From: Hymenobacter volaticus
GTDB lineage: Bacteria; Bacteroidota; Bacteroidia; Cytophagales; Hymenobacteraceae
NCBI RefSeq assembly: GCF_022921055.1
Contig: NZ_CP095063.1
Location: 248,001 to 312,000, forward strand
Direction: 5' to 3'
Length of the DNA stretch: 64,000 nt
Shown: positions 17,921 through 53,298 of the stretch, piece by piece
How the letters are laid out: every line of letters starts with the position of its first letter
Numbering within the stretch: position 1 is the stretch's first letter
The notes under the pieces: generated by a model
What the model saw: the letters and a program-made list of their open reading frames with translations, nothing else
Database searches by the model: none
Told to the model about the DNA's origin: nothing
Program-made: the position numbers and the translations under genes

Positions 17921-19365
17921 TTACTCGGCCGTAAAGGCAAAAACCAGTGCCGGATAGGTTCCTGCTTGTTGGGTTAGGTCGGCAGGCAGCGTAAGCTTCA
18001 CTTTGTCTCCTACGCGCGTCCACTGCACGGCCTTGCCCGTTTGCAGGAGTTTTAGCTGGCTGCCTTTTCGGGAAGGTTGCCGGTCCATTCCAGGGTGGCC
18101 GGCGCGGGTTGGTTTTCGGGTAGGCAGGCAATGGCGTAGCGGGTGCCCTTTTTGCCTTGGGTGAAATAGGTGCTGCCATCCTGGAAGCGGGCGGTAGCAC
18201 GGGTGTTATAAATGGCCTCGCCGTTCACGTCCAGCCACTTGCCTATGGCCGCTAACCGCGTCACGGCTTCGTCGGCCAGGGTGCCGTCGGGCTTGGGGCC
18301 GACGCCGAGCAGCAAACTGCCGCCTTTGGCGACTACCTCTACGAGCGAGTGAATAATCTTGGTAGGCGACTTGTAGGTGTCGTTCGGCACGTAGCCCCAA
18401 TTGTTGGCCAACGTCAGGCAGCTTTCCCAAGGGTTGGCCAGCGGCAACTCGGGTACGTGCTGCTCAGGAGTTTGGTAGTTCTCGTAGGGGCCGTGCACGG
18501 TGCGGTCGACCATGAGCAGGCCAGGCTGGGCCTGCCGGGCCATAGTAGCAATGCGCAGCATATCCACCTCCTGGCTGAACTCCGGGATGGGCGCGCCCCA
18601 AGAGCGTACTTCCGCGTTCACGGTTTCGCGGGGCCGCACCCAGCCGCCGTCGAGCCACAGAATATCCATCCGGCCGTAGTCGTGCATTAGCTCGCTTATT
18701 TGGTTGTAGGTGAAGCTCTTGTACTGCTGCCACCGCCACGGATACTTCTTGATGTCGTAGTTGACGTTGCGGTTAGGCGTGGCGTACTTCGGCCACCAAA
18801 ACTGCGGTGAGTGCCAGTCGGGTTTCGAGAAGTACGCCCCAATCATAAACCCTTGCTGCCGAAAGGCCTCGAACACGTACTTGGCCACGTTGGCCCGCGG
18901 ATTATCGCGGAACGGTCCGTTGGTGATCTTGAAATCCGATTGCTGGGTGTCGAACATACTGAAACCGTCGTGGTGCTTGGTGGTAAACACCAGATAGCGC
19001 ATGCCAGCTTTTTTCGCGACGGCCGCCCATTGGTCAGGATTGAACTTCACCGGGTTAAACTGTTGGCTTAGTCCCCAATACCACTTTTTGTAGTCTTCGT
19101 AGGCCACGGTACTGTCGCGCGTCACCCAATCTTCCGAGCACAGCTGCCACGACTCGATAATACCCGGCACGGCATACAAACCCCAGTGCAAAATCAAACC
19201 AAATTTCTGGTCGCGCCAACGTTCTAGCTTTTGCTTAACTAAGGGATCAGTAGGGGCTTCGTACTGCGTCGATTGCTGGTGAATACCTTGCTCTTGGGCG
19301 CGCCCCGATTGTACACTAGCGGCGGCTAGTATGAAGAAGGCGAGGGCAGCTTTTTTCACGTGCAT
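17921..19365 (-). CDS. Secreted GH29 alpha-L-fucosidase (frame broken at 18063-18068)
   Basis: Retaining exo-alpha-L-fucosidase. Signal MHVKKAALAFFILAAASVQSGRAQ, then the GH29 barrel: FGLILHWGLYAVPG, YLVFTTKHHDGFSMFDTQQS, and the nucleophile Asp in MDILWLDGGW. KGGSLLLGVGPKPDGTL marks the end of the barrel, followed by a beta-sandwich. The frame stops at 18052 after LPEKAAS; one added base at 18063-18068 continues as LPEKGSQLKLLQTGKAVQW and ends LVFAFTAE at 17921, for 481 residues. First gene of a likely two-gene unit with the GH3 enzyme, consistent with stripping fucose and then beta-linked sugars from the same oligosaccharide. Confidence 0.92.
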
Positions 19366-20556: not shown

Positions 20557-20609
20557 GGTGGAGGTAAGTTCAGTTATTTGGTGACCCGTCCTAACTCACC
20601 ATGCTAGGG

Positions 20610-22023
20610 TTATTGAGGAAGCATTTTGGTCGATGGTCGATAGCCGAGACGATGCACAACCAACAAGCCAACTTTGCTACCCTGGAGCTGACCTTGCCGG
20701 ATAGCATCGGGGAAATGTATGCCCCGTAAAGCCGCGACACGGCTGCTTCTTGGGCAGCTTGCCGAAAGGAAGTGAAATGCCGGGGCGGCAGCCCAAACAC
20801 CCGCTCGGTGGAGTCGAGATAAGCATAAGTCGGCCCGAAATAGTGTTCGAGCACTGTTGCCGCGGCCGTTGAGATGACGGAGTGACCACTTAAATATTCT
20901 GGGAATGGCGGGGTTTGGAGTAGCGGCTTCCATTCAGGGTCGAGATAGCGGCGAATCACTGTTTCGGGCCGAATCCGGTTGCTATGGTATTTCTCTTTCC
21001 AACAGCAAATGAACGCATCGGTGAGGGTGAGCGCCAGCACAGCGTGGATTTGCAAGCTACGGTTAAACGAGAAGTGGCTCTGATGGCAAGCCAAGCCGGC
21101 AATTTTCATCCAGTGCGCCCCCGGCGACATTTTCTTGAGCCCAACTTGTAAGTGCCCCTGGTCTTGCAAAGCAAAGGGTTACAGTCCCAAAAGCTGGCAA
21201 TTTGCCGTTGCTCCCGAGTAAGCGTGTTGCCTACCTGGCGTACGCTGTCCATGAGCTGATAAAAGCCAGAGCCCTTGCTAGGCGAGAACGCGAGCGGAGG
21301 AGCCGGCGCAAATTGTCCTGCCGAATCCAAGAAAAAGGGTCGAATAGAACTGAAGTACGGCTCCACGGCCGCGAAGAAGCCGGGTGGGGTAGGGTACCAA
21401 TAGCCTTCGCCCTCGGTAGGGGCGTAGCGCGGCAGGTCGCTGATGCGGTAGTACTTATCTTGCTTGGCATAGGCGAGCACCGCTTGCGCAACCTGCTGAG
21501 CGTATTGCTGCGAGGCCGTGACTACTGCCGCGGGCATACCTCGATGCCTGCACTCCTCCAGCAGTTCTTGTTCGCGAGCTTGCAACGCTACGCCCGAGGG
21601 CTGTAGCTTGCTCGCTGTCTGGAGGGTGGCTAACAGCGCTGTAAGCTGGGCAGAGTACACCTTTCCCGTCGGCCTAGGAACAGTAAGCGGAACGTGTAGG
21701 CGGCTAGCCATCGAGGGGCAGGTGGAGTCATTTTGCGCCAGCACCTCGTTGCCCGCTAACAGGGCGTAGGCAAAAAAACGAGCGGCCAGCGGCGGATTGG
21801 TGACGTCGTGCATCATTAGCTCGTTCATCTGGTCCACTACCAACCCAATCCGGTCAGCGGTAGGCTCGTAGTCGGTCGGCGTCGGGCGCCGGCAAGATAA
21901 CCACCCGACGCTAGCGACCAGAAGTAACACGCTCAGCAGCAAACGAATTGATGACAACGAGGAGATAATCACACAGGTAAGGGAGTAGGGACTATTCAAC
22001 TTTGCGGGCTTTGGCCGCCTCAA
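20610..22023 (-). CDS. Vanadium-haloperoxidase-like PAP2 lipoprotein (two frame breaks)
   Basis: Repaired length 471 residues. Residues 28-44 are a lipoprotein signal (LLLSVLLLVASVGWLSC), so it is probably anchored in an envelope membrane. The C-terminal half carries the PAP2/vanadate-binding signature: KYHSNRIRP (K-x6-R-P), PEYLSGHSV, and SRLYGGIHFPDA. Missing bases lie near 21173-21178 and in CCCC at 20722-20725; the last motif exists only once the second is restored. Members either oxidise halides with bound vanadate or hydrolyse phosphate esters; sequence alone does not decide. Its start overlaps the end of the 21992-23715 gene by 32 bases, so the two are translationally linked and belong to the SusC/D operon direction. 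Confidence 0.82.
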
Positions 22024-23715
22024 TAGCTTGGGCCACTTGCTCGCGGTACTTGTCGAACGTGTCGTCGGCGAAGGTGATTGTCGGGATGGGGCGCTGACTT
22101 ACTGCCACAGTTCGGGTTTTGCTGAAGCCGTACTCGTGCACGCCCGTGCTGCCCGAACCCGGGGCCGGGGTGCTGAGGTGGTTATAGCTATCGACGTAGG
22201 AGTAGAAGCCGGCCGGGTAGAGTGGGTAGCGCGGCACTTGGGTCAGGGGAAACGCGCTCATCAGGGCATCATAGTGCATTTCGGCAATAGGCAGCACGCC
22301 GGGGTGGCGCTGGGCCAGGTCGGCCACGAGCCGACGGGTACCCTCGTACATATCGGCTTTTGGGTTGTTTTCCCAAAGCCCGGCTATGTCCATGAAATAG
22401 GAATCGAGGTGATAGTTGGTGAGTACTTTATCGATCCGGTTGCGCAGGTAGTTGCGCCACGAGGCCACGCCCACATTCATGACGGGCATCCAGCCGTCGC
22501 CGTGCCGGTCGTTGTCCCAATCCACCCAGTTCAGGTCCCAGTTGTCGCCGTCCACGTGTTGAGTGGCGGCGTCGGCAAACTTCTTGAACTCCGGCAGTTT
22601 GCGGTTGGCCGAGTTGGTGCCAAACATGGCCGAAAAGTGAAATCCCAGCTTGTGACCTTCGTCGATAAGTTGCCGGAAGCCCTGGTCGCCGCCCATGCGC
22701 GGGTCGGTTTGATAGAGCGGATAGTTCCAGTAGTAGCGCCCATCCCAACCGGGCAAAAATACCAGCACGTTCTTGGGCTCGATTTGCGTAGCTATCCACC
22801 GCAAAATGGTAAGCTGCTTGGCGTAGTCGTTGAAAATGAATCCGGTCCAGTGGGCGCCGTGCAGGGCCACTACCAATTTAGTATCGCGCGCCCAAGCCGG
22901 CATGTCGGGTCGGGTGGCGTAGGCCGGAATACGGTAAGCCTGGGCTAGCTGGTCGAAGTGGGGCTTGGCAATGGCCTCGTACGTTGCGGCGGCTCCAATA
23001 CGCCACTGGCAGCTCTGCACCCGCTTGCGCCGCTCCCAGCCGGCCTGCTCGTAAATCAGCTCGGCGCGGTAACTATCGGGGCCGGGTTGTAGGAAAAATC
23101 GGGCCGGGCGCACTTCTGTCTGCCGGGCCGATAAACCGAAAAAACCTCCTTGGGGCTGCTTGATGATGATGAGCGGGGTGGAAAGTTGCCCGAACAGCTG
23201 GGGGTACTCGAACGTGTTTTCGTCGTCGTGCGGGTCCGTGAAGTTGGCGCCGGCCAGCGACAATTCCCCCGCGGAATACCCCGCACCACAGTGCTAATAG
23301 ATTTGATGGGCTGGTTCATCTGGGCCGATACGCGCCACTCCACGCTGCCATCGGGGTTGCGCTGGAGTTCGGCGGTGAGCTCCCCAGCCGCTTTTTCCTG
23401 CCCACCGGCCCAGGTAAAGCCTTGGCACAAATAGCGGAGTCGGTCGCCGGAACGCTCCAGCCGCGTGCGGGCCGGGTCAATGGCGTAAGTGTTCTCGAAC
23501 GTCTGCACCCGAAAGCTGAACTGGAAGCCCGCAAGCTCGGCTGAGGGCTCAGGCCACGCAAAGCTGAACTTCATTTCGCCCTTGCCCTTGGACGGGCTGT
23601 ACACGCCGTCCAGGGAGGTGAGCGGAATCAGCTCATTCTGGGCTTTAACGGGTTGGATTAACACCCCTAACCACCCTAGAGTAGCCAACAAAAGCTTATG
23701 CGTAAAACCTTGCAT
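21992..23715 (-). CDS. Predicted secreted glycosidase, DUF6259-like (frame broken at 23266-23270)
   Basis: Signal peptide from ATG 23715 (MQGFTHKLLLATLGWLGVLIQ), a beta-rich N-terminal region of about 200 residues with FQFSFRVQTFENTYAID and GSVEWRVSAQMNQPIKS, then a probable TIM barrel: VVALHGAHWTGFIFNDYAKQ, NVLVFLPGWDGRYYWNYPLY, DPRMGGDQGFRQLIDEGHKLG, HLDSYFMDIAGLWENN, VLPIAEMHYDALM. Acidic residues in YFMDIAG and IAEMHYD are candidate catalytic groups. One missing base in CCCCC at 23266-23270 breaks IPRGELSLAGANF. Repaired length 574. The resemblance to DUF6259 proteins is from memory; the glycosidase role is inferred from fold and from position in the SusC/D locus. Confidence 0.65.
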
Positions 23716-23795
23716 GCTGTCTGGTGAAAATAAGATAGAAGCGCAACTGGCCAGCAAAGCACTATTATAACTCTGGAAGAAAATTTCAGACTATT

Positions 23796-26700
23796 CTAAT
23801 GCTTTTTAAAAGCATAGGCCTGTAACTCCTGGTTGTTGCGCCCTACTAAAAGCACGCTACCGAGCTGGGTGAAGCTGCGCACGTCTCCTTGCACCCGCAA
23901 ACCCGATTGCCGTTGCGATACCGCCGTGAAGTTACCCCGGCCGTCGCCGCGCAGTAGCAGCCCGTAACCCGCATCGTTGTTGCCGAAACGGATGCGGCAG
24001 TGGGTGCTGTTGCCACCAAGCAATAAGTCAGGGTGACCATCGTGATTGTAGTCGAGGGTGGTAAGGGCGAAAACGGGGGTGTACTGCGCTTCTAAGGGCA
24101 GGGGAGCCAAGCGGTACCTTGCTTGCGAGGTACTCAGCAGACACGCCGTTTGCAGGTAGTTAGCCCGCAACACGTTTGCGTTTTTCAACTCCGCAGCCTG
24201 AAAGATGTTGGTCAGCTGCGCGTCGGCGTAGCTCCGGTAATTCGGAAAACGCGTGCGCGTCATGCTGAGCTGGTCCAATAACTCATCGCGCGACACGAAG
24301 GGGTAGCTTTTGCCTTGCACGTACATGCACAAGATCGGGTCAACGGCCCCGTTGTCGTCGAAGTCTTTGTAGTACAGTTCGGCGGGTTGTTGGTTGGTGG
24401 CTCGGCACTGCGTGTTAAGGCCCATATTGCCGATCACAAGGTCAGGACGATTGTCTTGGTTGAGGTCGGTTACCAATAGCTTGTTCCACCAGCCCGATAA
24501 CTTGCCGGGCAGGTAGGTAGTGGTTTCATCGGTTAGCTGTCCGTTGTGGTTGATCCATACTTGTACCGGCAGCCATTCGCCGACCGTCACCAAGTCAGGG
24601 TGCTGGTCCTGATTCAAATCCACCCAGGCGGCATCCGTAACCATACCTAGCTGCCTTAGGGTGGGAGCTAAACTGGCCGTCTGATCGTGAAAGCGGCCGT
24701 GCCCGTCGTTAACTAACAGATAGCTGGTTGGCGGCTCGGGGTAGCGGCCCGGCGTCACGCGGCCCCCAACAAATAAATCGGGTGAGTTATCGCCGTTCAC
24801 GTCGGCTACCCGCACGCAGCCGGTACTGGTGGGCATGGCGGGCAAACTACCTGCGGGACTTTTAGTGAAGTTGCCGCGCCCATCGTTGAGGTAAAGCCGG
24901 TCTTGCAGGAGCGCATCTCCGGGCAAGAAATTGTCGTACCCGCCGCTGGCCACGTAAAGGTCTAAGTCGCCGTCGCGGTCCACATCCAGGAAAGCCGCGT
25001 CGGTGTCTTCGTGTAGGTAGTCCGCTTCCAGGGCTGGTTGGGGCAACTCAGTGAATCGTCCCGCCTTTTGCTGCACGTAGACGCGGCTCCGGTAACCCGA
25101 AGCGCCTCCCATAAACACATCGGGCCGGCCGTCGTTATTTACGTCGGCCTGTACCAAGCACGGGCCGCTGTAAGACAAGCTGTTAACCAGCAAAGGCTGG
25201 CGTTTGAAATCATTGACGTTGTTTTCCGTTGCCACGGCGGCAATCGGCGGAGTTACCGCGGTAAACACAGGGTCCGCCGTCTGTTTATTGGCTAACTCCG
25301 GCGCGCTAGCGTCCGCTTCCCGCAGTACCAGCACATGGCCTGCGGGCACGGAGCGCACCACCTGCTGTTGCCCGCTAGGCCACGTCACCCGCACCGAATC
25401 AATCTGACGCCGCTGGCCCAGGCCAAAATGCAGCACCGGCGACACGCTGGATTGGTAACCGCGCCCAACTAGTTGTTCCTGCGTCTGCGTGACGTTGCCG
25501 GTGTAGAGCTGCACTTTGGCCCCAATACCGAGGCGGTTGGCTCCAACTCCTGCCAGTTGCACGGAAAGGCCCCGGTTTGCGGGTTTCTTCTCCGCGGTAT
25601 TGCGGTAGAGGAAGGCGGGTCCGTTTAAGTTGTTGACCACTATATCCAGGTCGCCGTCGTTGTCGAGGTCGGCGTAGGCGGCACCGTTGCTGTTCGCTGG
25701 TTCGGTGATGCCCCACGCGGTGCTGGCGTTGGTGAACGTCGCGCCCCCGGTGTTGCGGAAGGCGTAGCCCACCACGTTCGAGGAAGGCATCTTGCGCACC
25801 AAGTCCAGCAAGTTCTTGCGCTGCACGTCGCCCTGGCGGTCGTGCAGAAAGTCGCCCATGTACTTAAGAAAGTCTAGGTTGGTGTAGTCGTGCAAAAAGC
25901 CATTCGTAAGAAACAGGTCCTTCCAGCCGTCGTTGTCGTAATCGGCTACCAGGGGAGCCCAGCTCCAATCCGTATTGGAAACACCCGCGAGTTGCCCTAT
26001 TTCGCTGAAGGTGCTGTTACCATTGTTGAGGTGCAGCATGTTGCGCATGTACTGCTTATGCAAACCAGCTTCGTTTCGAATGCGAAACAGCTCGTAATTG
26101 TCGCTGGCAAAGAGCAGCTTCTGTCGCCGGTTGTCTTCAGGCAACATGTCGAGCGTGCAAACGTCGGCGTAGCCGTCGTTGTTGAGGTCGGCCGCGTCGT
26201 TGCCCATCGACGACAAGGACGTATGCCCCATCTGCTGGCCGAGCTGGTCGGTGAACGTGCCGTCGTGGTTGTTGATGTACAGGTAATCAGGGGCCAGGTA
26301 GTCGTTGGAAAGGTAGATGTCGGGCCAACCGTCGTTGTTGAGGTCGGCCACCGAGGCGCCGAGCGCAAAGGTCAGCCGCGTATTCAGCAAACCGGCCGCC
26401 GTGGCTACTTCCCGAAACCGGGGCAATTCTCCTGGTCGGGCGCCTTCGTTGCGGTAGAGCTTAATCCCCGTTTGCGCGTCGGGCGTGCGCATTAGTTGCT
26501 TGATGTAGAACTCGTCGAGGTTCTCGAACCGACGGGGGCTGTGGTTGAGCAGCAGCATGTCCAGGTCCTGGTCTTTGTCGTAGTCGAAAAAAACGGCCTG
26601 GGTGCTATAGGCCGAGTCGGCCAGCTCGCACGCCGCTGCTTGCTCGCGGAAATGGGGTACTCCTTGTTGGTCGTTTCCGAGGTTGAGGAACAGCTGATTT

Positions 26701-27149
26701 CGACGGAACTGGCCTGGCAGGTCGCCCGATCGGCACACGTAAAGGTCGAGGTGGCCGTCCGCGTTGAGGTCCACCATCGTGACGCCCGTTTTCCAGCCGA
26801 GCGGCAGCGCCACACCAGCCGTGGCCGTTACGTCCTCGAAGCGCAGGTTGCCTTTGTTGAGGTACAGTTTGTTGGCGCCTTTATTGGCCGTGAAATAGAT
26901 ATCATCTAAACCATCGCCATTCACATCACCGAGCGCCACCCCGCCGCCGTTGTAGGTGTATTCGTAGACCAGCACGTTGGTTGTTTCATCCTCAACTAAA
27001 TCGTTGCGAAACGTAACGTGGCTTTGCGTGGCGGGCACCAGTTGAAAAAGGGCGTCTTTGTTTGCCGTCATTCGCTGCTTTTGCTGGCACCCAGCCAGGC
27101 ACCACCAAGCGAGCAAAAGAGCAGCAGAACGCAAACGCCAAACACGCAT
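23796..27149 (-). CDS. FG-GAP/VCBS-repeat lipoprotein with ASPIC/UnbV domain
   Basis: 1117-residue lipoprotein (LLLAWWCLAGCQQK) built of beta-propeller repeats. Calcium-binding-type loops recur: DVNGDGLDDIYF, DLNADGHLDLYV, DYDKDQDLDMLL, DLNNDGWPDIYL, DLDNDGDLDIVV, DVNNDGRPDVFM, DVDRDGDLDLYV, DLNQDQHPDLVT. Between the two propeller-like halves, about residues 525-620, is an ASPIC/UnbV module: LGIGAKVQLYTG, LVGRGYQSSVSPVLHFGLGQ, VTWPSGQQQ. The frame is intact. Such proteins often accompany SusC/SusD pairs and are thought to sit on the cell surface and bind glycans or partners; no enzymatic role is established. It lies 80 bases upstream of the predicted glycosidase on the same strand. Confidence 0.9.
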   Translation of the reverse strand: MRVWRLRSAALLLAWWCLAGCQQKQRMTANKDALFQLVPATQSHVTFRNDLVEDETTNVLVYEYTYNGGGVALGDVNGDGLDDIYFTANKGANKLYLNKGNLRFEDVTATAGVALPLGWKTGVTMVDLNADGHLDLYVCRSGDLPGQFRRNQLFLNLGNDQQGVPHFREQAAACELADSAYSTQAVFFDYDKDQDLDMLLLNHSPRRFENLDEFYIKQLMRTPDAQTGIKLYRNEGARPGELPRFREVATAAGLLNTRLTFALGASVADLNNDGWPDIYLSNDYLAPDYLYINNHDGTFTDQLGQQMGHTSLSSMGNDAADLNNDGYADVCTLDMLPEDNRRQKLLFASDNYELFRIRNEAGLHKQYMRNMLHLNNGNSTFSEIGQLAGVSNTDWSWAPLVADYDNDGWKDLFLTNGFLHDYTNLDFLKYMGDFLHDRQGDVQRKNLLDLVRKMPSSNVVGYAFRNTGGATFTNASTAWGITEPANSNGAAYADLDNDGDLDIVVNNLNGPAFLYRNTAEKKPANRGLSVQLAGVGANRLGIGAKVQLYTGNVTQTQEQLVGRGYQSSVSPVLHFGLGQRRQIDSVRVTWPSGQQQVVRSVPAGHVLVLREADASAPELANKQTADPVFTAVTPPIAAVATENNVNDFKRQPLLVNSLSYSGPCLVQADVNNDGRPDVFMGGASGYRSRVYVQQKAGRFTELPQPALEADYLHEDTDAAFLDVDRDGDLDLYVASGGYDNFLPGDALLQDRLYLNDGRGNFTKSPAGSLPAMPTSTGCVRVADVNGDNSPDLFVGGRVTPGRYPEPPTSYLLVNDGHGRFHDQTASLAPTLRQLGMVTDAAWVDLNQDQHPDLVTVGEWLPVQVWINHNGQLTDETTTYLPGKLSGWWNKLLVTDLNQDNRPDLVIGNMGLNTQCRATNQQPAELYYKDFDDNGAVDPILCMYVQGKSYPFVSRDELLDQLSMTRTRFPNYRSYADAQLTNIFQAAELKNANVLRANYLQTACLLSTSQARYRLAPLPLEAQYTPVFALTTLDYNHDGHPDLLLGGNSTHCRIRFGNNDAGYGLLLRGDGRGNFTAVSQRQSGLRVQGDVRSFTQLGSVLLVGRNNQELQAYAFKKH

Positions 27150-27506
27150 AGTAAGAGAGGGCGGTAATTATTGGTGAGAAAAGAGAGCAGGAACGTAACT
27201 GCCAGAGTGGTGCTCTTAGTAAAGCTGGTGGGCGTAAGCAGTTTTAAGTTGTGCATTCCCCTTGCTTCAGCACTTACAATCGTGCAACACCACCCAGCAA
27301 TCCAATCAAATTCCCACAAAAGTTGGTCTGCTGCTGAAAAGCGGCGCCCGCATTACGTGCGTTCTAGCGCTTGATTTCTGCTCTATAGAAAATCAAGCGA
27401 AGACGCTGCGGACGCCGGGTGATACTGCACGTTGTGAGGCGCAAGCCCATGGCCATGAAAGGTATAGACTTGCTGAGCTAGTAGATTAAAGGTGCCCAAG
27501 TGCCAG
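27150..27506. other. Gap between susD-like gene and FG-GAP gene
   Basis: 357 bases, the only sizeable gap in the 20.6-34.4 kb gene run. It may hold a second promoter for the downstream genes. The only feature I noted is half of the CAATCGATTG operator (ACAATCG at 27277-27283), whose other half does not match. Confidence 0.45.
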
Positions 27507-29132
27507 TTAGTAGCCGGGGTTTTGCTTTAAGTTGGCGTTGGTGTTGAGCACGTTTTGCGGGATGGGCATCAGGGTGCGGTAGTCGCCGTTGGGCACGTGC
27601 GACAGCCACGACTTCTTGGTATAGATGCCGAATCGTATCATGTCTTGGCGGCGGTGACCTTCGCCGGTGAATTCCCAGCCAAGCTCGTCCAGGAACCGCC
27701 CATATTGAATGTCGGAGCCGCCTTCCACCGGGCTCACCACGTTGTTGCGCGCCGGGCCGTATTGGTAGGAACTGCCCTTGAGCAAGTCGGCCGCCGTCAC
27801 TGTGGCTTTGGCCGGGCTGGTGAAATTGCGCTGCCGTACCTGCGTTACCAGCTCGGCGGCGGGCGCGCCCATCCCCAGGCGCAGCATCGATTCGGCCTTC
27901 ATCATCAGGATGTCGGCGTAGCGGAACAACGGAAAATCGTTGCTTAAATCAACCCGGACGCCTTGTTTGATTTCGAATTTGCCGACCCGGAAGCCGTCCA
28001 CCTCCGCCGAGTTGTCGATGCCTGGCAGCGTATTGGTGAAAACCAACGGCTTGCCGGTGTAGGCCCCGAACACGCCTACTAGTGGCGCGCCCGTGGAAGA
28101 GTACTGTTGACCCTGAATCCACCCCTGCTTGAGGCGATTGTCATCTGGGTCGTAGGTGTTGATGAACTGTGGAATGGCGCAGATACCCCCGCCCCACATA
28201 CTGGCCTGCGCATTGTAGGTGGCTTGGTTTTGTGGCTGCAGGGTTTGCATGTGAATGCGGAAGCCCGTGGCGTACACCTCGTCGAAGGGAATAGCAAACA
28301 CGATTTCTTTGGAGCCCTCGTTCTGCGTTTTGAACACGTTGGCTTGAATCGGTTCGAGCGAGTACTTGCCGGAGCTAATTACGGCGTCGCAGGCGGCAAT
28401 GCACTTCACCCACTCGGCTTGCCCAGTGTACACCTGCGCGTTGAGGTACATCTTGGCCAGCAACGCCTGCGCCGCCCACTTGTTGCTGAATCGGCCGTAC
28501 GTGGTGGCGTCCGCTACGTCGCTGAGCAGGGGCAAGGATTCCGTAACTTCTTTGACAACGAAGTCATACACTTGCTTGCGGGTGTTCTGCTCGGGCAAAA
28601 AGCCAGCCGGCACATCAAACCGTTCCACAATCGGCACGTTGCCAAACAAGTCGCACAGCATGTAGTAGTACGAGGCCCGCAACACGCGCAGTTCCGCCAC
28701 GAGTTGCTCTTTGCCCGTCGGCACCGGTACCTGGCCCGACTCCACTTGGTAGAGGATGCGGTTGCAGTTGGTGATGCCGGCGAACGATTGGGTCCAGGCG
28801 TCGCGCGGGGTGGCATCCAGAGCCGTCCACTTGTGCTCGTGCAGGCGCCGGAACGAGCCATCGTCCACCCAGCCGTTGGGGCGGGCTGGCGTCACGGTTT
28901 CGTCGGTGGAGGTTTCGTTGATGCGGTACACCCCGTTGAACTCCAAGTACAGGGGCCGCCACGTGTTGTAAGCGGGACCAATCAGGGCCAGCAAATCCTG
29001 CGAGGTGGGCGTGAACTGATTGGTGACAATCTGATTGTAGCTCTCGTCGTCGAGTTTGGTGCAGGCGTTGAATAAAGTGAGGGCGGCCGTTGCCAGCAAG
29101 CTAACGCGCAAAGACTTAGCAGTGGTTTTCAT
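27507..29132 (-). CDS. SusD/RagB-family glycan-binding lipoprotein
   Basis: 541-residue outer-membrane surface lipoprotein with lipobox TLFNAC. Family landmarks: an N-terminal helical region (LLALIGPAYNTWRP, AWTQSFAGITNCNRILYQVE), AELRVLRASYYYMLCDLFGNVPIVE, YDFVVKEVTESLPLL, SNKWAAQALLAKMYLNA, and a C-terminal FPLFRYADILMMKAESMLR followed by DELGWEFTGEGHRRQDMIRFG. SusD proteins cap the SusC channel and deliver oligosaccharides. Its start is 16 bases from the susC stop, so the pair is co-transcribed. Substrate is inferred to be an arabinose-containing glycan from the GH127 neighbour. Confidence 0.96.
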   Translation of the reverse strand: MKTTAKSLRVSLLATAALTLFNACTKLDDESYNQIVTNQFTPTSQDLLALIGPAYNTWRPLYLEFNGVYRINETSTDETVTPARPNGWVDDGSFRRLHEHKWTALDATPRDAWTQSFAGITNCNRILYQVESGQVPVPTGKEQLVAELRVLRASYYYMLCDLFGNVPIVERFDVPAGFLPEQNTRKQVYDFVVKEVTESLPLLSDVADATTYGRFSNKWAAQALLAKMYLNAQVYTGQAEWVKCIAACDAVISSGKYSLEPIQANVFKTQNEGSKEIVFAIPFDEVYATGFRIHMQTLQPQNQATYNAQASMWGGGICAIPQFINTYDPDDNRLKQGWIQGQQYSSTGAPLVGVFGAYTGKPLVFTNTLPGIDNSAEVDGFRVGKFEIKQGVRVDLSNDFPLFRYADILMMKAESMLRLGMGAPAAELVTQVRQRNFTSPAKATVTAADLLKGSSYQYGPARNNVVSPVEGGSDIQYGRFLDELGWEFTGEGHRRQDMIRFGIYTKKSWLSHVPNGDYRTLMPIPQNVLNTNANLKQNPGY

Positions 29133-29148
29133 GATAAGAGCAGGCGGG

Positions 29149-32100
29149 TTAGAAGGTTAGGTTGGCACCAAGCGTGAAAGTGCGTACCGTCGGGTACTTG
29201 TCGCGTTCATCGTTGCCGGCCGCCAGGCCGATGCGGTTCACTTCCGGATCAATACCCGAGTAGCCCGTGATGGTGAAGGTGTTCAGCGTTGAGACATACA
29301 GGCGCATGTTCTTGACGTGCTTCACCAAGTTCGGCTTGAAGTTGTAGCCGAGGGTGATGTTGTCGATCTTCCAGAAGTCGCCGTCCTCGATGTAGTAGCT
29401 GTTGTACTCCAGGGGCATGCTGGTGGCCAGCACCGCCTTGTCGAACACCTTGTCGTAGGCCGTGCTGAGGCGGTTGTACTGCGTTACGCCAGTGTTTTCG
29501 TAGTACATGCGCTGGAAGTTCAGAATCTGGTAGCCGAACGCGCCGCGCATTGTGATGCCTAAGTCCAGGCGCTTGTACTGGAAGTTGTTGTTCCAGCCGG
29601 CATAATACTTAGGCAAGCCGTTGCCGAGCACCTGCTTGTCGTCTTCGCTGTGCGTGAATTGGCTGTAGGGCAGCCGCTCACCCGATTTGTTTTCGTAGAT
29701 CCATTGCCCGTCATCGGTTACGTCCACCACTTTGTAGCCGTAGAAATCCCCGAGTCGTTTGCCAACTTCCACCCGGTGCGTGTAGGTTTGGATGGGTTCC
29801 CCGGTGTAGCCGGTGGTAAAGAAGTTGTTGGTGAGCGTGTAGAGGTCGTTGGTAAGCGAGACGAGTTTGTTGCGGTTGGTTGAAAAGTTGAAACTGGAAT
29901 TCCATACAAAACTCTTGGTTTGCACGGGTATCAAGTTGAGCAGTACCTCGAAGCCCTTGTTTTCCATGGAACCCACATTGGCAGTGGTGGTAGTGAACAA
30001 GTTGGGCGGCGAGGGCACCTGGTAGTCGTAAAGCAGGCCGTTGGTGCGCCGGATATAGTAGTCCAACGTACCGCCGATGCGCCCTTTAAAGAAAGAGTAA
30101 TCGAGCCCGACGTTGGTTTCGTGTTTTTCCTCCCAGCGCAACGACGGGTTGGGGTTGCTTACCGGGCTCAGGGCCTGTACCCATGTGCCGTTCGATAGGA
30201 AGTAGCCAGTATACCCCAACCGGGCCACGCCCAGAAAGGAAGAATTCGGCGCCGTACCTGTTACCCCGTAGCCAGCCCGCAGCTTCAAGTCGTCGAGGAA
30301 GGTGGCATCCTGCAGGAAATTCTCTTGATTGATGCGCCAGCCCACCGACACGGCCGGGAAGGTACCCCAGGGCTGTTCGGCCCCGAGAAAGCGAGACGAG
30401 GCCTCGCGGCGCACGCTAGCCAGCAGCAGATACTTTTCCTTGTAGTTGTAAGTGACGCGACCGAAGAAGCCCACCAAGTTCCACTGGTTTTTGTCGCTGT
30501 ACATCGGCGCGCGGCCTAAGCGCAGAGCATTACCGATGCCGATGTTGTTGTACGTAAACAGATCCGTAGGAAAGTCCCAGTTCGACTGGTAGTAGTTCTC
30601 GGACGTGTTCTGCTGATAGCTGTAGCCGCCGAGCACCGACACGCGGTGCTCACCGAAGCTGCGGTTGTAGGCCGCCGTCAATTCCGCTAACTTCTCGACT
30701 ACCTGCGTGGTGCCGCGGGAAGCGTAGCCGTTCAGGCCGTCGCGCAGGGTAGAGGGGTGCTGCTTGGTTTCCGAGTAACCTCGCACTTGGTTGTAGCGCG
30801 TGTTCGAGGTCAGGGCTTTCAGCTGCAAGTTGTCGATGGGTTCCCAGGCCAGGCTCCCGTTCAAGCGCGTGTTCTGGTAGGAGTTCTGCCCATCCGATTC
30901 GTAGAGGCGCGAAAGCGGATTCTCGTAGTTGAACAAAGACAGCTGCTGCGCGTACGTGCCGTCCGGGTTGTAGATCGGCGCGGTAGGGTTACGAATAACG
31001 GCTTGCCGGTAGGTGTAGCCATTGAAAGCGCGACCCTCGCCGAAGTTGCCACCGTCCGGAATGCCGAAGTTGCCGCCGTCCACCGTTGCCGTGTAGCGGT
31101 TGTTGCTATTGAGAATTCCGAGGTTAACCTTTACCCGGCCGTCGAACATGGCGTGGTTGATGTCGGCGCGCCCAGTGAACGTGCGGTTGTCGGACTTCTG
31201 GAAAATGCCCTCGAAGTAGCGGTAGTTGCCGTTAATCAGGTAATTGGTTTGGGCATTGCCACCCTTAAACGTCACGTTGTGCACGTGAATCAGCGGTTTT
31301 TGGCTGATTTCCTTGATCCAGTCGGTGCTGCTGCCCTGGTCGGTGAAAGCGACTCCTTCCCCAAGCCGCTGCCGATATTCGCTGGCCGTAAGCATTTCGG
31401 GGCGGCGCGCAATGCGCTGGGTGCTCACGTAGCCGCTGTACTCGATGGTAGGGTCAATGTTGCCTTTCGGGCGGCGCGTGGTGATAAGAATCACCCCGTT
31501 GGTGCCCCGCGTGCCGTAAATAGCGGCCGCCGAACCATCCTTGAGCACGTCAATCGACTCGATATCTTCCGGCGCTACCGTGTTCAGCGTACCTGGTATA
31601 CCGTCGATGAGCACGAGCGGCTGAGTGCTCGAATTCAGCGTTGCTGTACCGCGCAGTAGGATCTGGCTGTTGGCCGTCGGGTCGCCGCTGGGGCTACTTA
31701 CGGTGAGGCCCGCCACCTTGCCTTGCAACAACTGCCCAGCATCCTTGGTCGCGCCCTTAATGAAGCTCTCCTCCTTTACACTAGCTACCGAGCTAGTAAG
31801 GTCGGCGCGCCGCTGGGTGCCGTAGCCCACCACCACGACGTCGCCAAGTGCTTTGGTATCGGGTTGCAACGTTACGTTGATAACGGTGCGTCCTCCTACG
31901 GTTATTTCCTGCGCCGTGGAGCCCACAAAGCTGAAAACCAGCACCGCGTTGTCGGGAGCCGTTAGCGAATAATTGCCGTCGGCATCGGTCTGCGCCCCGC
32001 TCGTAGTGCCTTTTACGACCACGTTTACGCCGGGCAAAGCTGCCCCTTTGTTGTCAACCACCCGGCCTTTGATTGGTCCGTCGGCTTGAAAAACAAGCTT

Positions 32101-32202
32101 GAACCCGGTAGCGGCCAAGCTTTCCCTGGGCATTGCTACCGCCAACCCGCAAAGAGAAGCAGCCAGCACCAAGCTATTAGCGTGAGGTAAGGGAATTTTC
32201 AT
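29149..32202 (-). CDS. SusC/RagA-family TonB-linked outer-membrane transporter
   Basis: TonB-dependent oligosaccharide importer. ATG at 32202 (MKIPLPHANSLVLAASLCGL) is preferred over the frame's upstream extension to 32292, which runs through the operator at 32260. Order: signal, carboxypeptidase-D-like domain (IKGRVVDNKGAALPGVNVVVKGTTSG), plug (GDVVVVGYGTQRRADLTSSVASV; VLIDGIPGTLNTVAPEDIESIDVLKDGSAAAIYGTRG holds the family motif), then a long barrel ending VRTFTLGANLTF. 1017 residues, normal for SusC. The first partner in the operon is SusD. Energised by TonB-ExbBD encoded elsewhere. Confidence 0.96.
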   Translation of the reverse strand: MKIPLPHANSLVLAASLCGLAVAMPRESLAATGFKLVFQADGPIKGRVVDNKGAALPGVNVVVKGTTSGAQTDADGNYSLTAPDNAVLVFSFVGSTAQEITVGGRTVINVTLQPDTKALGDVVVVGYGTQRRADLTSSVASVKEESFIKGATKDAGQLLQGKVAGLTVSSPSGDPTANSQILLRGTATLNSSTQPLVLIDGIPGTLNTVAPEDIESIDVLKDGSAAAIYGTRGTNGVILITTRRPKGNIDPTIEYSGYVSTQRIARRPEMLTASEYRQRLGEGVAFTDQGSSTDWIKEISQKPLIHVHNVTFKGGNAQTNYLINGNYRYFEGIFQKSDNRTFTGRADINHAMFDGRVKVNLGILNSNNRYTATVDGGNFGIPDGGNFGEGRAFNGYTYRQAVIRNPTAPIYNPDGTYAQQLSLFNYENPLSRLYESDGQNSYQNTRLNGSLAWEPIDNLQLKALTSNTRYNQVRGYSETKQHPSTLRDGLNGYASRGTTQVVEKLAELTAAYNRSFGEHRVSVLGGYSYQQNTSENYYQSNWDFPTDLFTYNNIGIGNALRLGRAPMYSDKNQWNLVGFFGRVTYNYKEKYLLLASVRREASSRFLGAEQPWGTFPAVSVGWRINQENFLQDATFLDDLKLRAGYGVTGTAPNSSFLGVARLGYTGYFLSNGTWVQALSPVSNPNPSLRWEEKHETNVGLDYSFFKGRIGGTLDYYIRRTNGLLYDYQVPSPPNLFTTTTANVGSMENKGFEVLLNLIPVQTKSFVWNSSFNFSTNRNKLVSLTNDLYTLTNNFFTTGYTGEPIQTYTHRVEVGKRLGDFYGYKVVDVTDDGQWIYENKSGERLPYSQFTHSEDDKQVLGNGLPKYYAGWNNNFQYKRLDLGITMRGAFGYQILNFQRMYYENTGVTQYNRLSTAYDKVFDKAVLATSMPLEYNSYYIEDGDFWKIDNITLGYNFKPNLVKHVKNMRLYVSTLNTFTITGYSGIDPEVNRIGLAAGNDERDKYPTVRTFTLGANLTF

Positions 32203-32259
32203 ACGCAAAGTGTTAAGAGAAAAGTTTGAAGCGCGGGAGAGCTGCCCGTCAGCGTAAGA

Positions 32260-32273
32260 CACAATCGATTGTG
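32260..32273. promoter_or_regulatory. Predicted LacI-type operator upstream of susC
   Basis: CACAATCGATTGTG, a perfect 14-bp palindrome with a central CG, lies 57 bases before the susC ATG at 32202. The core CAATCGATTG recurs at 34569 and, with one change, at 34669, the gap that holds the divergent LacI-type gene. Even palindromes with central CG are typical of LacI-family operators; binding is inferred. Confidence 0.7.
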
Positions 32274-32372
32274 CAACCAAAATTGACAGCACGCAGGCTT
32301 ATAAAGGGGGTTTCTAGTTGCAAGGTACCGGACCCATCGGCTCTGGCACCTAGCTTGTTAGAGTGCTATTCT

Positions 32373-34412
32373 TTATTTATTGACTACCACTTCGGTTGCT
32401 GGCTGGCTAACCAAGTCCACGTCCGTCACGCGCTGCGGAAACCACACGGTCATCTCGCCTTTGCCGCGATTGGCCCAGGCATAGTAGGGGATAGCCGTTA
32501 GCTTCTGCTGCACGGTGCTAACGGTGTTGTTGGCGGCATCCACTTTCACCGCCGGTACGGTAGCGGTTAGCTCCACCACGCCGTTGAGCACGGCGGGCTG
32601 GTAGGAAGCGGCGAAGGTGGTGGCAGTCGGCACAATCAAGTTGCTGGTTTTGCCTTCATTGTCTTTCCACTCGGCGCAATACATAACTGGTCCGCGTTGC
32701 AGGGCTGCTTTAGCCAAGTCGTCTTTCACCTTGGGGTTGGCGACTACCTGGCGGACTTCCATAGGCAGCGTCACATCGACCACGTCGTTTTTGCGCCACT
32801 TTTTGGCTAACATGGCGTAGCCGTTCTTTACCGTGTACGGTATAGGTTTGCCATTGATCTTGATAGCGACTTTCTCCTTGGACGGCGTCGCAAACGTGTA
32901 CAAGTCCGAAGGCATGGCCTCGTTGCGTGCCCAGCCCGGAATCCGCACCAACAAATTGAAATCGGTGGTAGCAGTCGGGTTCACGGTGAACTTCAGGCCC
33001 CCATCCCAGGGATAGTTGTTTTGCTGAGTAAGCTGCACCTTCTGCTTGTTGACGAGCAAGTCGGTTTCACCGCTCACAAACAGATTGACGTACACGTTCT
33101 GGCCTTTTTGGGCGTACACGTAGCCGGGCAGCGAAGGAAACAGGCGGGCGAGGTTGGTAGGGCAGCACGAGCAATCAAACCAGCCCGCCCGCTCCGGCTC
33201 AGTTTGCGCGAAGCTGAAGCTGTTCTTGACCTGCATGGCGTTAGAGTAAAAGAACGACTTGCCATCGAGGCCCACGCCCGAGAGCAGGCCGTTGTAGAGC
33301 ACCTTCTCCATGATGTCGGCGTACTTAGCTTCGCCGTGGAGCTGGAACATGCGCTGGTTCCAGTAGATGTCGGCTACAGAGGCGCAGGTTTCGTTGTAAG
33401 CTGTGTTGTTGGGCAACTCGTAGTTGCCCCCGAACCGTTCGCCGCCGGGCACCGCGCCCGTCCCGCCCGTCACGTAGAATTTCTTGCTCACCATGTTGTT
33501 CCAAATGCTGTCCACGGCGGCCAGCATGCGCTTATCGTTGGTAAGGGCGGCTACGTCGGCCATGGCCGAGTACAGGTATTCGGCGCGAACGGCGTGGCCA
33601 ATGGCTTCGCGCTGGTCGTACACCGATTTATCGTCTTGCCAGTACTGCCCGTTTTTCCACACGTCTTTGCTCTTGGCGTCGTAGCCTTTGTATTGGCCGC
33701 GCTGCTCGAGAAAGAACTTGGCCGTGCTTAAATACTCGGGCTTGCTGGTTACGCGGTAGAGCTTCACGAGGCCCATTTCTACAATCTCGTGGCCCGGGGC
33801 TACGCTGCGCTTGCTCGGCCCGAACACCGAGCACACCAGGTCGGCATTCTTGAGGGCAATATTCAATAAGTTCTTCTTGCCGGTGGCCTGGTAGTGCGCG
33901 ACGGCGGCTTCGTAGAGGTGACCTGAGTTATACAGCTCGTGGCTGAGCTCCCGCTCTTTTTCCCAGCGTTCTTTGCCAGCCCACGCGTGCGGATGCGCCG
34001 GATCGATGGTGCGGGCCGTGTAGAGGTAGCCATCGGGCTCTTGCGCCGCGGCCACTTTAGCTATCAACGCATCCACATAGGCTTCGAGCTTCTCGTCCGG
34101 GTACAAGCTCATCGAATACGATGCTCCTTCGATGGTCTTGTAAATATCGGTGTCGTCGAAGGGGAAGGTGGTAGCAAACTTGCCCGACTTAGCCGCGGCC
34201 ATTTCAAAGTTCTTCACCCGGTTGGTGGCCTCGCAGCGCTGAAACGACGCCGGGATAGTCACGTCGGTGTTGGTTTTCAGGCGCGGCAGCCAGAAGTTGT
34301 CGGCCAGCTTCACCTTGGTAAACGAAACGGCCTGAATGGGGTAGTCCGCTTGTTGAGCCAGCGCCGCAGTGGTTAAACTAAGCGCCAGGGTGGTGAGGGT
34401 AATTTTGCCCAT
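32373..34412 (-). CDS. Secreted GH127 beta-L-arabinofuranosidase
   Basis: Releases beta-L-arabinofuranose, classically from arabinooligosaccharides on hydroxyproline of plant glycoproteins. ATG at 34412 gives MGKITLTTLALSLTTAALAQQ, a signal peptide. Barrel motifs: WLPRLKTNTDV, FDDTDIYKTIEGASYSM, EPDGYLYTARTI, SGHLYEAAVAHYQATG. The zinc/thiolate site is visible: Glu341 and Cys343 in NETCAS, and Cys416-Cys417 in FDCSCCPTNLAR, matching the Glu and Cys cluster known for the family, where one Cys is the nucleophile. Intact, 679 residues. Upstream of susC on the same strand, with operators on both sides of its promoter region. Confidence 0.93.
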   Translation of the reverse strand: MGKITLTTLALSLTTAALAQQADYPIQAVSFTKVKLADNFWLPRLKTNTDVTIPASFQRCEATNRVKNFEMAAAKSGKFATTFPFDDTDIYKTIEGASYSMSLYPDEKLEAYVDALIAKVAAAQEPDGYLYTARTIDPAHPHAWAGKERWEKERELSHELYNSGHLYEAAVAHYQATGKKNLLNIALKNADLVCSVFGPSKRSVAPGHEIVEMGLVKLYRVTSKPEYLSTAKFFLEQRGQYKGYDAKSKDVWKNGQYWQDDKSVYDQREAIGHAVRAEYLYSAMADVAALTNDKRMLAAVDSIWNNMVSKKFYVTGGTGAVPGGERFGGNYELPNNTAYNETCASVADIYWNQRMFQLHGEAKYADIMEKVLYNGLLSGVGLDGKSFFYSNAMQVKNSFSFAQTEPERAGWFDCSCCPTNLARLFPSLPGYVYAQKGQNVYVNLFVSGETDLLVNKQKVQLTQQNNYPWDGGLKFTVNPTATTDFNLLVRIPGWARNEAMPSDLYTFATPSKEKVAIKINGKPIPYTVKNGYAMLAKKWRKNDVVDVTLPMEVRQVVANPKVKDDLAKAALQRGPVMYCAEWKDNEGKTSNLIVPTATTFAASYQPAVLNGVVELTATVPAVKVDAANNTVSTVQQKLTAIPYYAWANRGKGEMTVWFPQRVTDVDLVSQPATEVVVNK

Positions 34413-34568
34413 AAACAACGAGAAGAAGTTAAGTGACGGCGGAGGGAGGCTGCTAGGTATTCACACCGGGCAGGGAGCAGGGCAGCAAGACCAAGCGAAG
34501 AGCAAGCCAAAAGCACAGGCTTGGACGGGTGCGATTTGTACAAACATATCTTTTAAAAATATACTGCG

Positions 34569-34796: not shown

Positions 34797-35834
34797 TTGG
34801 GCAAAGGAAAACAAACCAACCAGCCTTCTTTAACTGATTTGGCCAAGCTGCTTGGACTCTCTGTCTCGGGTGTTTCGCGGGCGTTAAACAACGATCCGCG
34901 TATCAGCCAGGCCACCAAGAAACGAGTGCAAGCACTGGCCCAGCAGCTAAACTACCAGCCCAACCACCTAGCGGCCGGACTGCGCAGAGGCAAAAGCAAG
35001 CTGCTCGGGGTTATCGTGCCCTTTATTGACGGCCGCTTTTTTGCCGTTGTTATCAAGGGCATCGAACTAGCCGCCAGCCGAGCCGGCTTCAGCGTCATTA
35101 TTTGTCAATCAAACGAGGACGTAGCCCACGAACGGCAGAATATCGAAACGTTGCTCAGTGCGCAGGTAGAAGGTATTTTGGTTTCTATATCGCGCACCAC
35201 GCATGATTTTGCGCATTTCGAGAAGGTGCAGCAGCGGGGTATTCCCTTGGTGTTCTTCGACCGAATTTTGGTGGGTACCCGCGTGAATGCCGTGGTGCTT
35301 GATGATTATGCGGGGGGCTTTCTAGCAACCCAGCACCTGATCGAGCAAGGATGCCAACGCATTGGGCACTTCGCCGGGCCCCAACAGTTAGGCATTTATG
35401 CACACCGCCGGCAAGGGTACCTCGACGCCTTACGGAAGCATGGGCTGCCTCTGGCTGAAGAGTTCATTGTGTACTGCGACCCCATTGCGCTGGATACGGG
35501 CAAGCAAGCAATGCAAAAACTACTGCAGTTGCCGGAGCGTCCGGACGCCATTTTCTCGGCCAGTGATGCGGCGGCGGTGGGGGCGCTTCAGTTACTGGAA
35601 GAACAGCAGTTACGGGTGCCGCAGGACGTGGCTCTGGTTGGTTTCAGCAACGAAATGTTCACATCTCTCACCAAGCCCTTAATTACTTCGGTTGATCAAT
35701 GCTGCGAGCAAATGGGGCAGGCAGCCGTGCGCTTGTTTCTGCAATTAGGGCAAGAGCCGAAAAGCCAAGCGCCGCAACACGTAGTCTTGCAGCCCGAGTT
35801 GTGCATCCGGGCCTCCTCTCTTCGCAACACCTGA
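34797..35834 (+). CDS. LacI-family transcriptional regulator
   Basis: 345 residues. N-terminal HTH and hinge: PSLTDLAKLLGLSVSGVSRALNN, ISQATKKRVQALAQQLNYQPNHLAAGLRRGKS. The periplasmic-binding-protein-like ligand domain follows: LLGVIVPFIDGRFFAVVIKGIE, GILVSIS, IPLVFFDR, VLDDYAGGFLATQHLIEQGCQRIGHFAG, DAIFSASDAAAVGALQ, VALVGFSNE. The start is a TTG at 34797, since an in-frame stop at 34782 leaves no ATG. Divergent from the GH127-susC-susD run, it is the obvious local regulator, released or activated by a sugar, probably L-arabinose or a related oligosaccharide (inference). Unusual because many such loci use hybrid two-component or ECF/anti-sigma control. Confidence 0.92.
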   Translation: MGKGKQTNQPSLTDLAKLLGLSVSGVSRALNNDPRISQATKKRVQALAQQLNYQPNHLAAGLRRGKSKLLGVIVPFIDGRFFAVVIKGIELAASRAGFSVIICQSNEDVAHERQNIETLLSAQVEGILVSISRTTHDFAHFEKVQQRGIPLVFFDRILVGTRVNAVVLDDYAGGFLATQHLIEQGCQRIGHFAGPQQLGIYAHRRQGYLDALRKHGLPLAEEFIVYCDPIALDTGKQAMQKLLQLPERPDAIFSASDAAAVGALQLLEEQQLRVPQDVALVGFSNEMFTSLTKPLITSVDQCCEQMGQAAVRLFLQLGQEPKSQAPQHVVLQPELCIRASSLRNT

Positions 35835-39943: not shown

Positions 39944-40209
39944 GGCCAAGGAAAAAGCAAGGGTGAAGAAAAGAGCAGATCCGTAAGAGGGGCAATGGCA
40001 ATGCCTATGTGCTTCTGCAGGTCAACTCCCTAAACTATAAAATAAGGCACCTATCTAGGATAAAATGGTAGTTTAAAGAGCACAATCTTTAAAAAGCGCT
40101 TCACCTACTAGATGTAGCCGGTAAGTGAAGTAAGCGCTGTATTTCAGGCCGCAACCAGTGATAGTTACGCCCACATAGGATTAAGTAGGGTACCCATATA
40201 CTTTGTGTC

Positions 40210-49031: not shown

Positions 49032-49407
49032 AAATAGTCAAGTCAACTGGGGAGGAGGGCAGGTTGCCACGGCGCAGCCCTAGAGCTAAGCAGAAAGTTT
49101 AACCGCCTAGTTTGCTCGGGTATGCAAACCAACGGCTATCATCAGACAACCAAGTTGGTACTCACCTGCTACCTAGATGACAGGGAGATAGTTGTTTACC
49201 TAAGGTTCTAGAGGAAAGCTTGCGTTGACCTTACCGGGTACAACTCTTGGCAAACATGTGCAAAGAGGCTGGTGACGAATTTCCACCCGTTAAAAAGCTA
49301 GTTTACCCCGCTTCTCTTACCCACGGGAGCAGGATCTTTACTGCAGATCTTGGTTGAAGTTCACCGCTCACATTCTCCCCGACCAGCCGTTTCGGCGCGT
49401 TTTGCCC
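49032..49407. other. Divergent intergenic region, no gene
   Basis: About 375 bases between the mini-protein start and the GH43 signal-peptide start. The GH43 frame is open upstream to 49354 but that leader is not signal-like. No clear promoter motif recognised. Confidence 0.45.
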
Positions 49408-52796: not shown

Positions 52797-53298
52797 AGAA
52801 AGGTACTGGTTGAGCAAGAATGATTCGGGACCAGCTATTCGAGGTGGGCATAGCTTTCCCGGTAAGCCGTCGGAGTGGGGTTCAACCACGCCAACCGGCT
52901 TTCAAAATTTTCAGTAGGGTGAAAGGAAGAGAGCAGGGCCAACCGCCCGCCAACAGCGAAGTGAAAAGAAAGGGATGCTCAAGCTTACTGCACGCCCTTC
53001 GGTGAAACGTTTCAACCATAAGAGACCCAACCAGGACTTTACCCCCACGCCAACAAGATAAAAAACGCAAATACTTGACTAGCCAACCACTAATGCCTTG
53101 ACCTTCAAATGCTTGTGAAATACTGTTGAAGCAGTGAAGTAGGTGTGGCGAGGGCCCTGGTTATTAAGACCTGCAAAGGTTTCACATGGATATCAGCCTC
53201 TACTAAGCTCGGCCTAGCGCTCTTGCCGCACGGTAGCGCTAGAAAAGCCTTGGTACTGCATCTTTGTGCCTGCGCTTCCTCACGTTACCTTCTGCTTT
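52797..53298. other. Divergent intergenic region, no gene
   Basis: About 500 bases between the surface-protein start and the cyclase start. The cyclase frame extends up to 53266 but the better start is 53299. No clear motif recognised. Confidence 0.45.

Follow-up and report, generated by a model that had tools for sequence, protein, structure and literature searches.

Here we describe a recurrent gene module of the Bacteroidota in which a SusC/SusD glycan importer is combined with a large FG-GAP/UnbV protein (here termed F) and a vanadium haloperoxidase (here termed V). It was encountered in a stretch of 64,000 nucleotides of Hymenobacter volaticus DNA (NCBI RefSeq assembly GCF_022921055.1, contig NZ_CP095063.1, positions 248,001 to 312,000; hereafter the window, whose own numbering is used below). 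The composition of the module is solid, and in it F and V, inherited together, make up a dedicated pair. The core of the finding, first proposed in an initial annotation made from the letters of the window, is real and stronger than its author could know.

The six genes that the initial annotation placed in one direction are present, all on the minus strand. The first encodes a putative beta-L-arabinofuranosidase-like glycosidase of family GH127 (32373..34418; PF07944, E 9e-109), which we file as GH127 only and not as an aceric acid hydrolase, its score of 465 bits lying below the cut-off of 950 bits of the NCBIfam model NF049879. It is followed by the SusC outer-membrane TonB-dependent importer (29149..32292; TIGR04056, 728.6 bits against a cut-off of 368), the SusD lipoprotein (27507..29132; PF07980 and PF14322, with an N-terminal lipobox recognised by eye), the CRTAC1-like lipoprotein F (23796..27149; FG-GAP_3 and UnbV_ASPIC), a glycosidase-like protein of ~575 amino acids in two frames (21992..23757, composed of 23056-23757 and 21992-23263) and finally V (20610..~21972; profile match to PDB 4cit/4usz).

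From its sequence we assign the V family to the VIPO1-type vanadium haloperoxidases. A profile built from 13 intact V relatives matches the Zobellia vanadium haloperoxidase (PDB 4cit/4usz) over its full length with E 1.2e-174, and at E <=0.01 the PDB listing of 12 sequences consists of vanadium haloperoxidases and NapH enzymes only. The pieces of the window V match the same profile with E 1e-90 and 2e-83, while the Pfam model PF01569 is missed narrowly (27.1 bits against a cut-off of 27.2). The three motifs K-x6-RP, SGH and SR-x5-H occur together in 159 of the 164 fetched V genes that score at least 400 bits, repeated loci included. The initial annotation raised the possibility that the pocket lacks the vanadate-binding residues; the motifs for vanadate binding are conserved, and the nearest solved relative is a haloperoxidase. 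The V family resembles VIPO1 (PDB 4CIT, 4USZ) in full-length homology and in the same three motifs. The window copy differs from VIPO1 in being split, and five intact same-genus relatives differ by carrying WKEK or WQEK, WDEK being present in 107 of the 164 V genes.

The window V is distributed over three frames (21106-22023 and 20591-21169, with the tail in 20610-20933), so that no intact reading frame exists. The initial annotation had called its motifs complete after frame repair; all of them are indeed present, but only across reading frames, with the first two motifs (K-x6-RP, SGH) and the SR of SR-x5-H in frame 20591-21169 and the final H in the open reading frame 20610-20933. An overlap of 32 bases between the last two genes, likewise claimed, does not hold up, as it rests on a TTG at 22023; the likelier start is the GTG at 21972, a plausible lipoprotein start ~20 bases past the glycosidase stop, and the corresponding gaps in two same-genus loci (L239 and L244) amount to 8 and 27 bases when the longest reading frame is taken. 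The overlap was therefore dropped as a sign of coupling and is regarded as a probable start-codon artefact. Since both V and the glycosidase-like gene are frame-broken, the window copy may be inactive or mis-assembled; this lowers the claim of a working copy in the window, not the family assignment of V. A second, more divergent V-like gene in two frames is found ~30 kb from the window V (L039, 8381-9864; ~238-240 kb of the source contig).

F carries seven FG-GAP_3 stretches and a UnbV_ASPIC domain according to Pfam, which places it in the CRTAC1/UnbV family, and its predicted architecture is that of two beta-propellers joined to a UnbV domain. Compared to CRTAC1 (cartilage acidic protein 1) and the ASPIC-UnbV family in general, it is about twice as long, has an extra propeller (624-1117) and, judged by its N-terminus, is a bacterial lipoprotein.

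To evaluate how far this neighbourhood recurs, we analysed 40 loci hand-picked from the window's family (family set), the best 80 named loci (named set) and 40 loci hand-picked from a phylum sample of 296 Bacteroidota genomes (phylum set; V is present in 58 of the 296 genomes), together with the 20 control loci for F described below and ten additional loci taken near the top of the list obtained with the VIPO1 query; none of these groups was drawn at random. Two loci that repeat named ones (L045 and L052) were left out of the partner counts and the distance test and kept in the pattern, adjacency, F-tree and motif counts, L170 was also left out of the operon-partner count, and L125 is without upstream sequence. 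Chance expectations are rough estimates made for a density of one gene per 1.1 kb.

Strict gene orders, written with C for SusC, D for SusD and x for any other gene, are present in 68 of the 120 loci of the family and named sets (10 and 58, respectively), namely CDFV in 53, FVCD in five, CDFFV in four, CDxFV in three, CDxxFV in two and FFFVCD in one. Where V scores at least 400 bits, F lies no more than 450 bp upstream of it in 26 of 33 loci of the family set, 78 of 80 of the named set and 20 of 35 of the phylum set; below 400 bits the figures are 0 of 7 in the family set and 1 of 5 in the phylum set. The family count rises to 28 of 33 when L040 and L041 are added by eye. In these two the V reading frame extends into F, for which reason the script counted no F there; by eye, F adjoins V in both. 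Over the whole phylum set, 21 of 40 loci have F directly upstream of V, where a rough estimate for 40 random genes of the same genomes gives 0.025. SusC and SusD are both found within 9 kb in 10 of these 40 loci, with a rough expectation of 0.73 for a same-strand SusD within that distance. The latter count is a lower bound, because some stretches end within the F genes; upstream extension of ten such phylum-set loci revealed SusC and SusD in every one, adjoining F in seven and standing apart in three, and in L200 and L201 xylose and symporter genes separate the pair from F. All four genes are likewise present in nine of the ten further loci, C and D being out of view in L212; F and V are separated by other genes in L212 and L214. 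The neighbourhood survey suggested by the initial annotation thus finds SusC/SusD with F and V recurring across the Bacteroidota, well above the rough chance estimate.

The dedicated pairing of F and V is evident from their inheritance. When the label "next to V" is traced on a tree of 218 F proteins, 15 changes are counted, compared to a mean of 68.7 and a minimum of 60 when labels are shuffled (the window F was labelled by hand as next to V, despite the intervening glycosidase-like gene). One clade of 108 F proteins contains 98 so labelled, that of the window by hand; the other ten comprise L040 and L041, where V was missed by the gene caller, five same-genus loci where the glycosidase-like gene precedes V, and three F proteins whose genomes gave no V match. 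A further 31 V-adjacent F proteins fall outside this clade. Loci with F arrays gave 24 pairs; in all 24, the F beside V is closer to a V-adjacent F from a different locus than to its sibling in the array. Pairwise distances across 65 loci correlate with r 0.90 for F and V, 0.79 for C and V and 0.80 for D and V, values reached by none of 500 permutations. Among the matches listed we found no F-V fusion protein, the longest V reading frames being 842, 542 and 768 amino acids. For SusD the label "F-V" changes 15 times on the tree, against a shuffled mean of 36 and a minimum of 30 (for those L199-L208 rows whose V falls in the adjoining stretch, the F-V label was assigned by hand); the module SusD is thus clustered, and the idea that it forms a single clade was rejected on account of these 15 changes. 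The nearest tree rows of the window SusD are same-genus loci and L161. A lipobox-like motif occurs in 78 of 158 V, 104 of 177 F, 78 of 111 SusD and 10 of 96 SusC proteins, with ~5-10% in shuffled sequences.

Two controls address how F and V behave apart. Around 20 SusD genes taken at roughly even steps of the list, F lies within ~6 kb in six and V in one. Conversely, of 20 F loci picked from genomes without a V match at E 1e-60, 13 hold SusC, SusD and F on one strand within the fetched stretch, four SusC only and three neither; two of the 13 (L232 and L233) contain a divergent V-like gene. Tandem FG-GAP/UnbV genes beside SusC/SusD, with no haloperoxidase in the stretch, were observed in L222-L225 and L227, which come from genomes without a V match.

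A link to a protein of known structure is provided by the CHARACTERISED enzyme. With 4CIT as query, a 98% identical protein is found in a Zobellia-like genome (G239), where the gene for it follows directly on three F genes, starting 7 bp after the last one; in the Zobellia-like locus L199, SusC and SusD lie ~11 kb further upstream of the F genes, and a LacI gene is divergent from SusC. As F stands in front of this 98% identical copy, the F-V setting holds for the VIPO1-group protein whose structure is solved, or else for one very close to it. The same query detects V in 124 of 299 genomes of the family to which the Zobellia-like genome belongs (E <=1e-120). To our knowledge, no physiological role has been settled for the VIPO1 group of bacterial haloperoxidases. 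In the portion of text available from PMC13198595, the Zobellia enzyme is called an iodoperoxidase whose catalytic centre is common to its class, and excerpts of PMC9296495 report that Zobellia vIPO3 is upregulated on Ascophyllum and discuss it alongside oxidative-stress genes.

Within the genus of the window the module takes a particular form. The glycosidase-like gene is present in 9 of 120 same-genus genomes, that of the window included, and seven of the other eight carriers were fetched (L239-L245). Five of them (L239, L240, L242, L244 and L245) show the order GH127, C, D, F, glycosidase-like gene, V, in some cases with extra genes, and in these five V is intact with 450-479 amino acids; split genes are found in L240 (SusC) and L245 (glycosidase-like gene). 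GH127 is also present in L239-L242, L244 and L245. In L239 a GH43 gene stands between D and F and a GH51 arabinofuranosidase gene between F and the glycosidase-like gene. In L243 only the glycosidase-like gene is seen. The L241 stretch is without F, and its V is reduced to a remnant of 90 amino acids. In L241, GH31 and GH43 genes occupy the place of F, possibly reflecting a joint loss of F and V. The locus L161, from another family, has C-D-F-V with no glycosidase between, its C, D and F being 56-59% and its V 47-67% identical to those of the window, and V is followed there by a BD-FAE-type esterase and a pectinesterase. Together, the GH127, GH51 and GH43 genes of the same-genus loci and the esterase and pectinesterase of L161 point to arabinose-rich plant cell-wall glycans as the probable target of the window version.

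A fixed six-gene unit across the phylum was rejected, since the glycosidase-like gene belongs to the window-genus version and is not found between F and V in L161. Elsewhere, this position is occupied by other genes; for example, L163 has a kojibiose hydrolase of family GH65 there, and L179 a GH116-like protein. The label "glycosidase" for the putative gene between F and V stems from the initial annotation and from its appearance by eye. Similar proteins of ~575-605 amino acids, hypothetical and of the PF19773 type, are numerous: there are 1077 relatives, the named ones among the 120 listed are nearly all "hypothetical protein", and PF19773 is precomputed in two of these 120. The intact copy P0003, 89% identical to the window protein, differs from that type in having no Pfam match. 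A search of PDB sequences with the family returned a GH13-type protein at best, with a non-significant E of 0.05.

What might the module do? The window holds a C-D-F-V copy within a GH127-led polysaccharide utilization locus (PUL), and we consider it possible, at slightly less than an even chance, that a surface-bound V oxidises or halogenates phenol-bearing glycans beside SusC/SusD. F and V would both be located at the cell surface, with F holding V beside the importer. V would take hydrogen peroxide (H2O2) and a halide, most likely iodide or bromide, to oxidise or halogenate groups borne by the glycan. Phenols would be the most plausible targets; on land these would be groups such as ferulate on the side chains of arabinan or pectin, and in the sea the phenolics of algae. 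The polymer would thereby be loosened or detoxified, so that glycosidases could cut it and SusC/SusD import the pieces. Ferulate is a known decoration of arabinan and pectin side chains, and phenols are attacked by haloperoxidases. Because the vanadate-binding motifs are conserved and the nearest solved relative is a haloperoxidase, a halogenating step linked to glycan import appears plausible. The wider proposal, that C-D-F-V loci constitute a distinct class of glycan uptake in which F docks V beside SusC/SusD, phenol oxidation dependent on halide and H2O2 is a dedicated step on land and in the sea alike and the Zobellia iodoperoxidase is a member, we regard as rather doubtful.

The genes that accompany the module bear on this question. 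From 235 operon partners, 103 were run against Pfam and the 25 commonest of 149 families are considered here: GH2 domains occur in five to six partners, GH29, ROK, response regulator, outer-membrane barrel and GyrI-like domains in four each, GH95 in three, and GH92, GH9, GH26 and GH65 in two each. Genes for xylose isomerase, a xylulokinase-like protein, a symporter, a GH65 of the maltose-phosphorylase type and a kojibiose hydrolase are present elsewhere in the loci. GH29 homologues were found in 12 of the 181 loci searched, that of the window included, and all 12 also carry F and V labels. A GyrI-like small-molecule-binding protein of ~300 amino acids is encoded in ten loci with F and V (L148, L163, L165, L170, L173, L175, L209, L210, L211 and L215). 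When the 103 partners were searched with PADLOC, eight models matched at E 1e-10, and one of these matched more than one member (six); this sole recurrent model takes its name from a CARF/beta-galactosidase fusion and probably detects GH2 enzymes. Apart from it, no recurrent defence family was found among these partners by PADLOC, no search being aimed at antibacterial weapons.

Several observations weigh against the proposed phenol-oxidising role and the unity of the module. No substrate shared across loci was found; as the partner genes vary by lineage (GH92, GH29, GH9, GH65, xylose genes), no single substrate is indicated. An H2O2-producing enzyme is absent from the 25 commonest Pfam families of the 103 partners. 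F is a common companion of SusC/SusD without V, and 10 of the 35 phylum-set V genes of at least 400 bits lack F within 5 kb, as do all seven family-set V genes below 400 bits. In five sampled genomes F-V is present and no SusD was found (L187, L189, L190, L191 and L195); thus, SusC/SusD are not essential, and F-V is the core to which they are a frequent addition. Moreover, the shared species history of the four genes contributes to the distance correlations, the lipobox counts above support lipoprotein anchoring in only about half of the V and F proteins, and the window's own V is broken.

Four other explanations have to be considered. V could mainly act as an H2O2 sink at the surface, where plants and algae release H2O2 under attack, with halogenated products being incidental. 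In line with this, the nearest solved relative belongs to an H2O2-using class (available text of PMC13198595) and vIPO3 is upregulated on Ascophyllum and is discussed together with oxidative-stress genes (excerpts of PMC9296495), but the dedicated F partner and the co-divergence with SusC/SusD would be left unexplained, and we regard this role as unlikely. Alternatively, V might make hypohalous acid against competitors or as signals, as a defence module co-regulated with the importer. The enzyme class of V would suit such a role, as would its recurrence by importers that are presumably used where competition is intense, and a PIN-domain-like gene was seen by eye on the opposite strand beside four loci. 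Set against this are the PADLOC results for the 103 partners, from a search not aimed at antibacterial weapons as such, in which only eight models matched and none recurred save the probable GH2 one. We consider a defence role improbable.

The PAP2 fold of V and its PF01569 score just under the cut-off are compatible with a PAP2-superfamily phosphatase acting on phosphorylated glycans or lipids, and its motif residues are common to acid phosphatases. Against the full-length match to 4cit and the exclusive recovery of vanadium haloperoxidases and NapH enzymes among the twelve listed PDB sequences, a phosphatase role appears less likely than that of a haloperoxidase, and we consider it quite improbable. 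Finally, crowded glycan loci might bring F and V together as unrelated passengers. That F lies near SusD in 6 of 20 SusD loci, and on the same stretch and strand as SusC and SusD in 13 of 20 F-control loci, would suit this view; V is found in only 1 of 20 SusD loci, F-V adjacency exceeds the rough chance estimate by far and is kept without SusD, and the V-adjacent F proteins form their own lineage. A mere accumulation of passengers is thus disfavoured and most improbable.

The surroundings of the module in the window agree with a glycan locus. SusC and SusD homologues are adjacent on one strand and carbohydrate-active enzymes are co-located, as is characteristic of a PUL: besides the first gene, a second GH127 lies upstream (37571..39949, minus strand; PF07944, E 4e-122), and a GH29 alpha-L-fucosidase-like gene (18052..19365, minus strand; PF01120, E 2e-98) and a GH3 gene (15813..17777, minus strand; PF00933 and PF01915) lie downstream as probable parts of the wider locus, with GH92 (3503-6709) and GH43 (49354-51555) further out on the plus strand. 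With GH92, GH43 and the second GH127 around the locus, the window resembles a large plant-glycan region. A LacI-type regulator gene is divergent from the operon (34797..35834, plus strand; matches to NCBIfam LacI/CytR-type models under their curated cut-offs), and a divergent LacI gene upstream of GH127 is also present in L241 and L245. An M1-peptidase-like gene at 35865-37519 (minus strand) apparently consists of two overlapping frames, the larger of which alone has a Pfam match; with the glycosidase-like gene and V it makes three split genes, a hint of assembly indels, pseudogenes being the other possibility. Farther away, the window encodes a protein of 319 amino acids that joins an adenylate/guanylate cyclase domain and a 2Fe-2S ferredoxin domain (53266-54225, plus strand) and a single open reading frame of 904 amino acids with AcrB-type efflux and outer-membrane efflux (OEP) sequence (61262-63976, minus strand).

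The window thus shares with SusC/SusD PULs the SusC/SusD pair, the LacI regulator and several glycoside hydrolases, and differs from them by the haloperoxidase and the giant CRTAC1-like protein. PULs usually encode a surface glycan-binding protein after SusD, and in the window this slot is taken by F. No description of a C-D-F-V module was found in the open-licence PMC papers searched, nor did any of them mention together haloperoxidase with SusC and SusD, UnbV with SusD or haloperoxidase with FG-GAP, which is consistent with the initial annotation having called the system undescribed. As far as their available passages go, an Arenibacter genome note mentions haloperoxidase and SusD families separately (PMC5064120), FG-GAP and SusD both appear in a paper on a subject other than C-D-F-V (PMC2668756), and three Zobellia papers (PMC9296495, PMC8490876, PMC5613140) and a seaweed paper (PMC12188728) do not describe the module.

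In conclusion, the VIPO1 group of haloperoxidases gains a genomic setting, with a dedicated beta-propeller partner and, where SusC/SusD exist, often a glycan importer. F, as a widespread companion of SusC/SusD, is worth naming in its own right. The putative link between halogenation and glycan feeding becomes testable by gene deletion and enzyme assay, and bears on the natural formation of organohalogens in soil and on algae.

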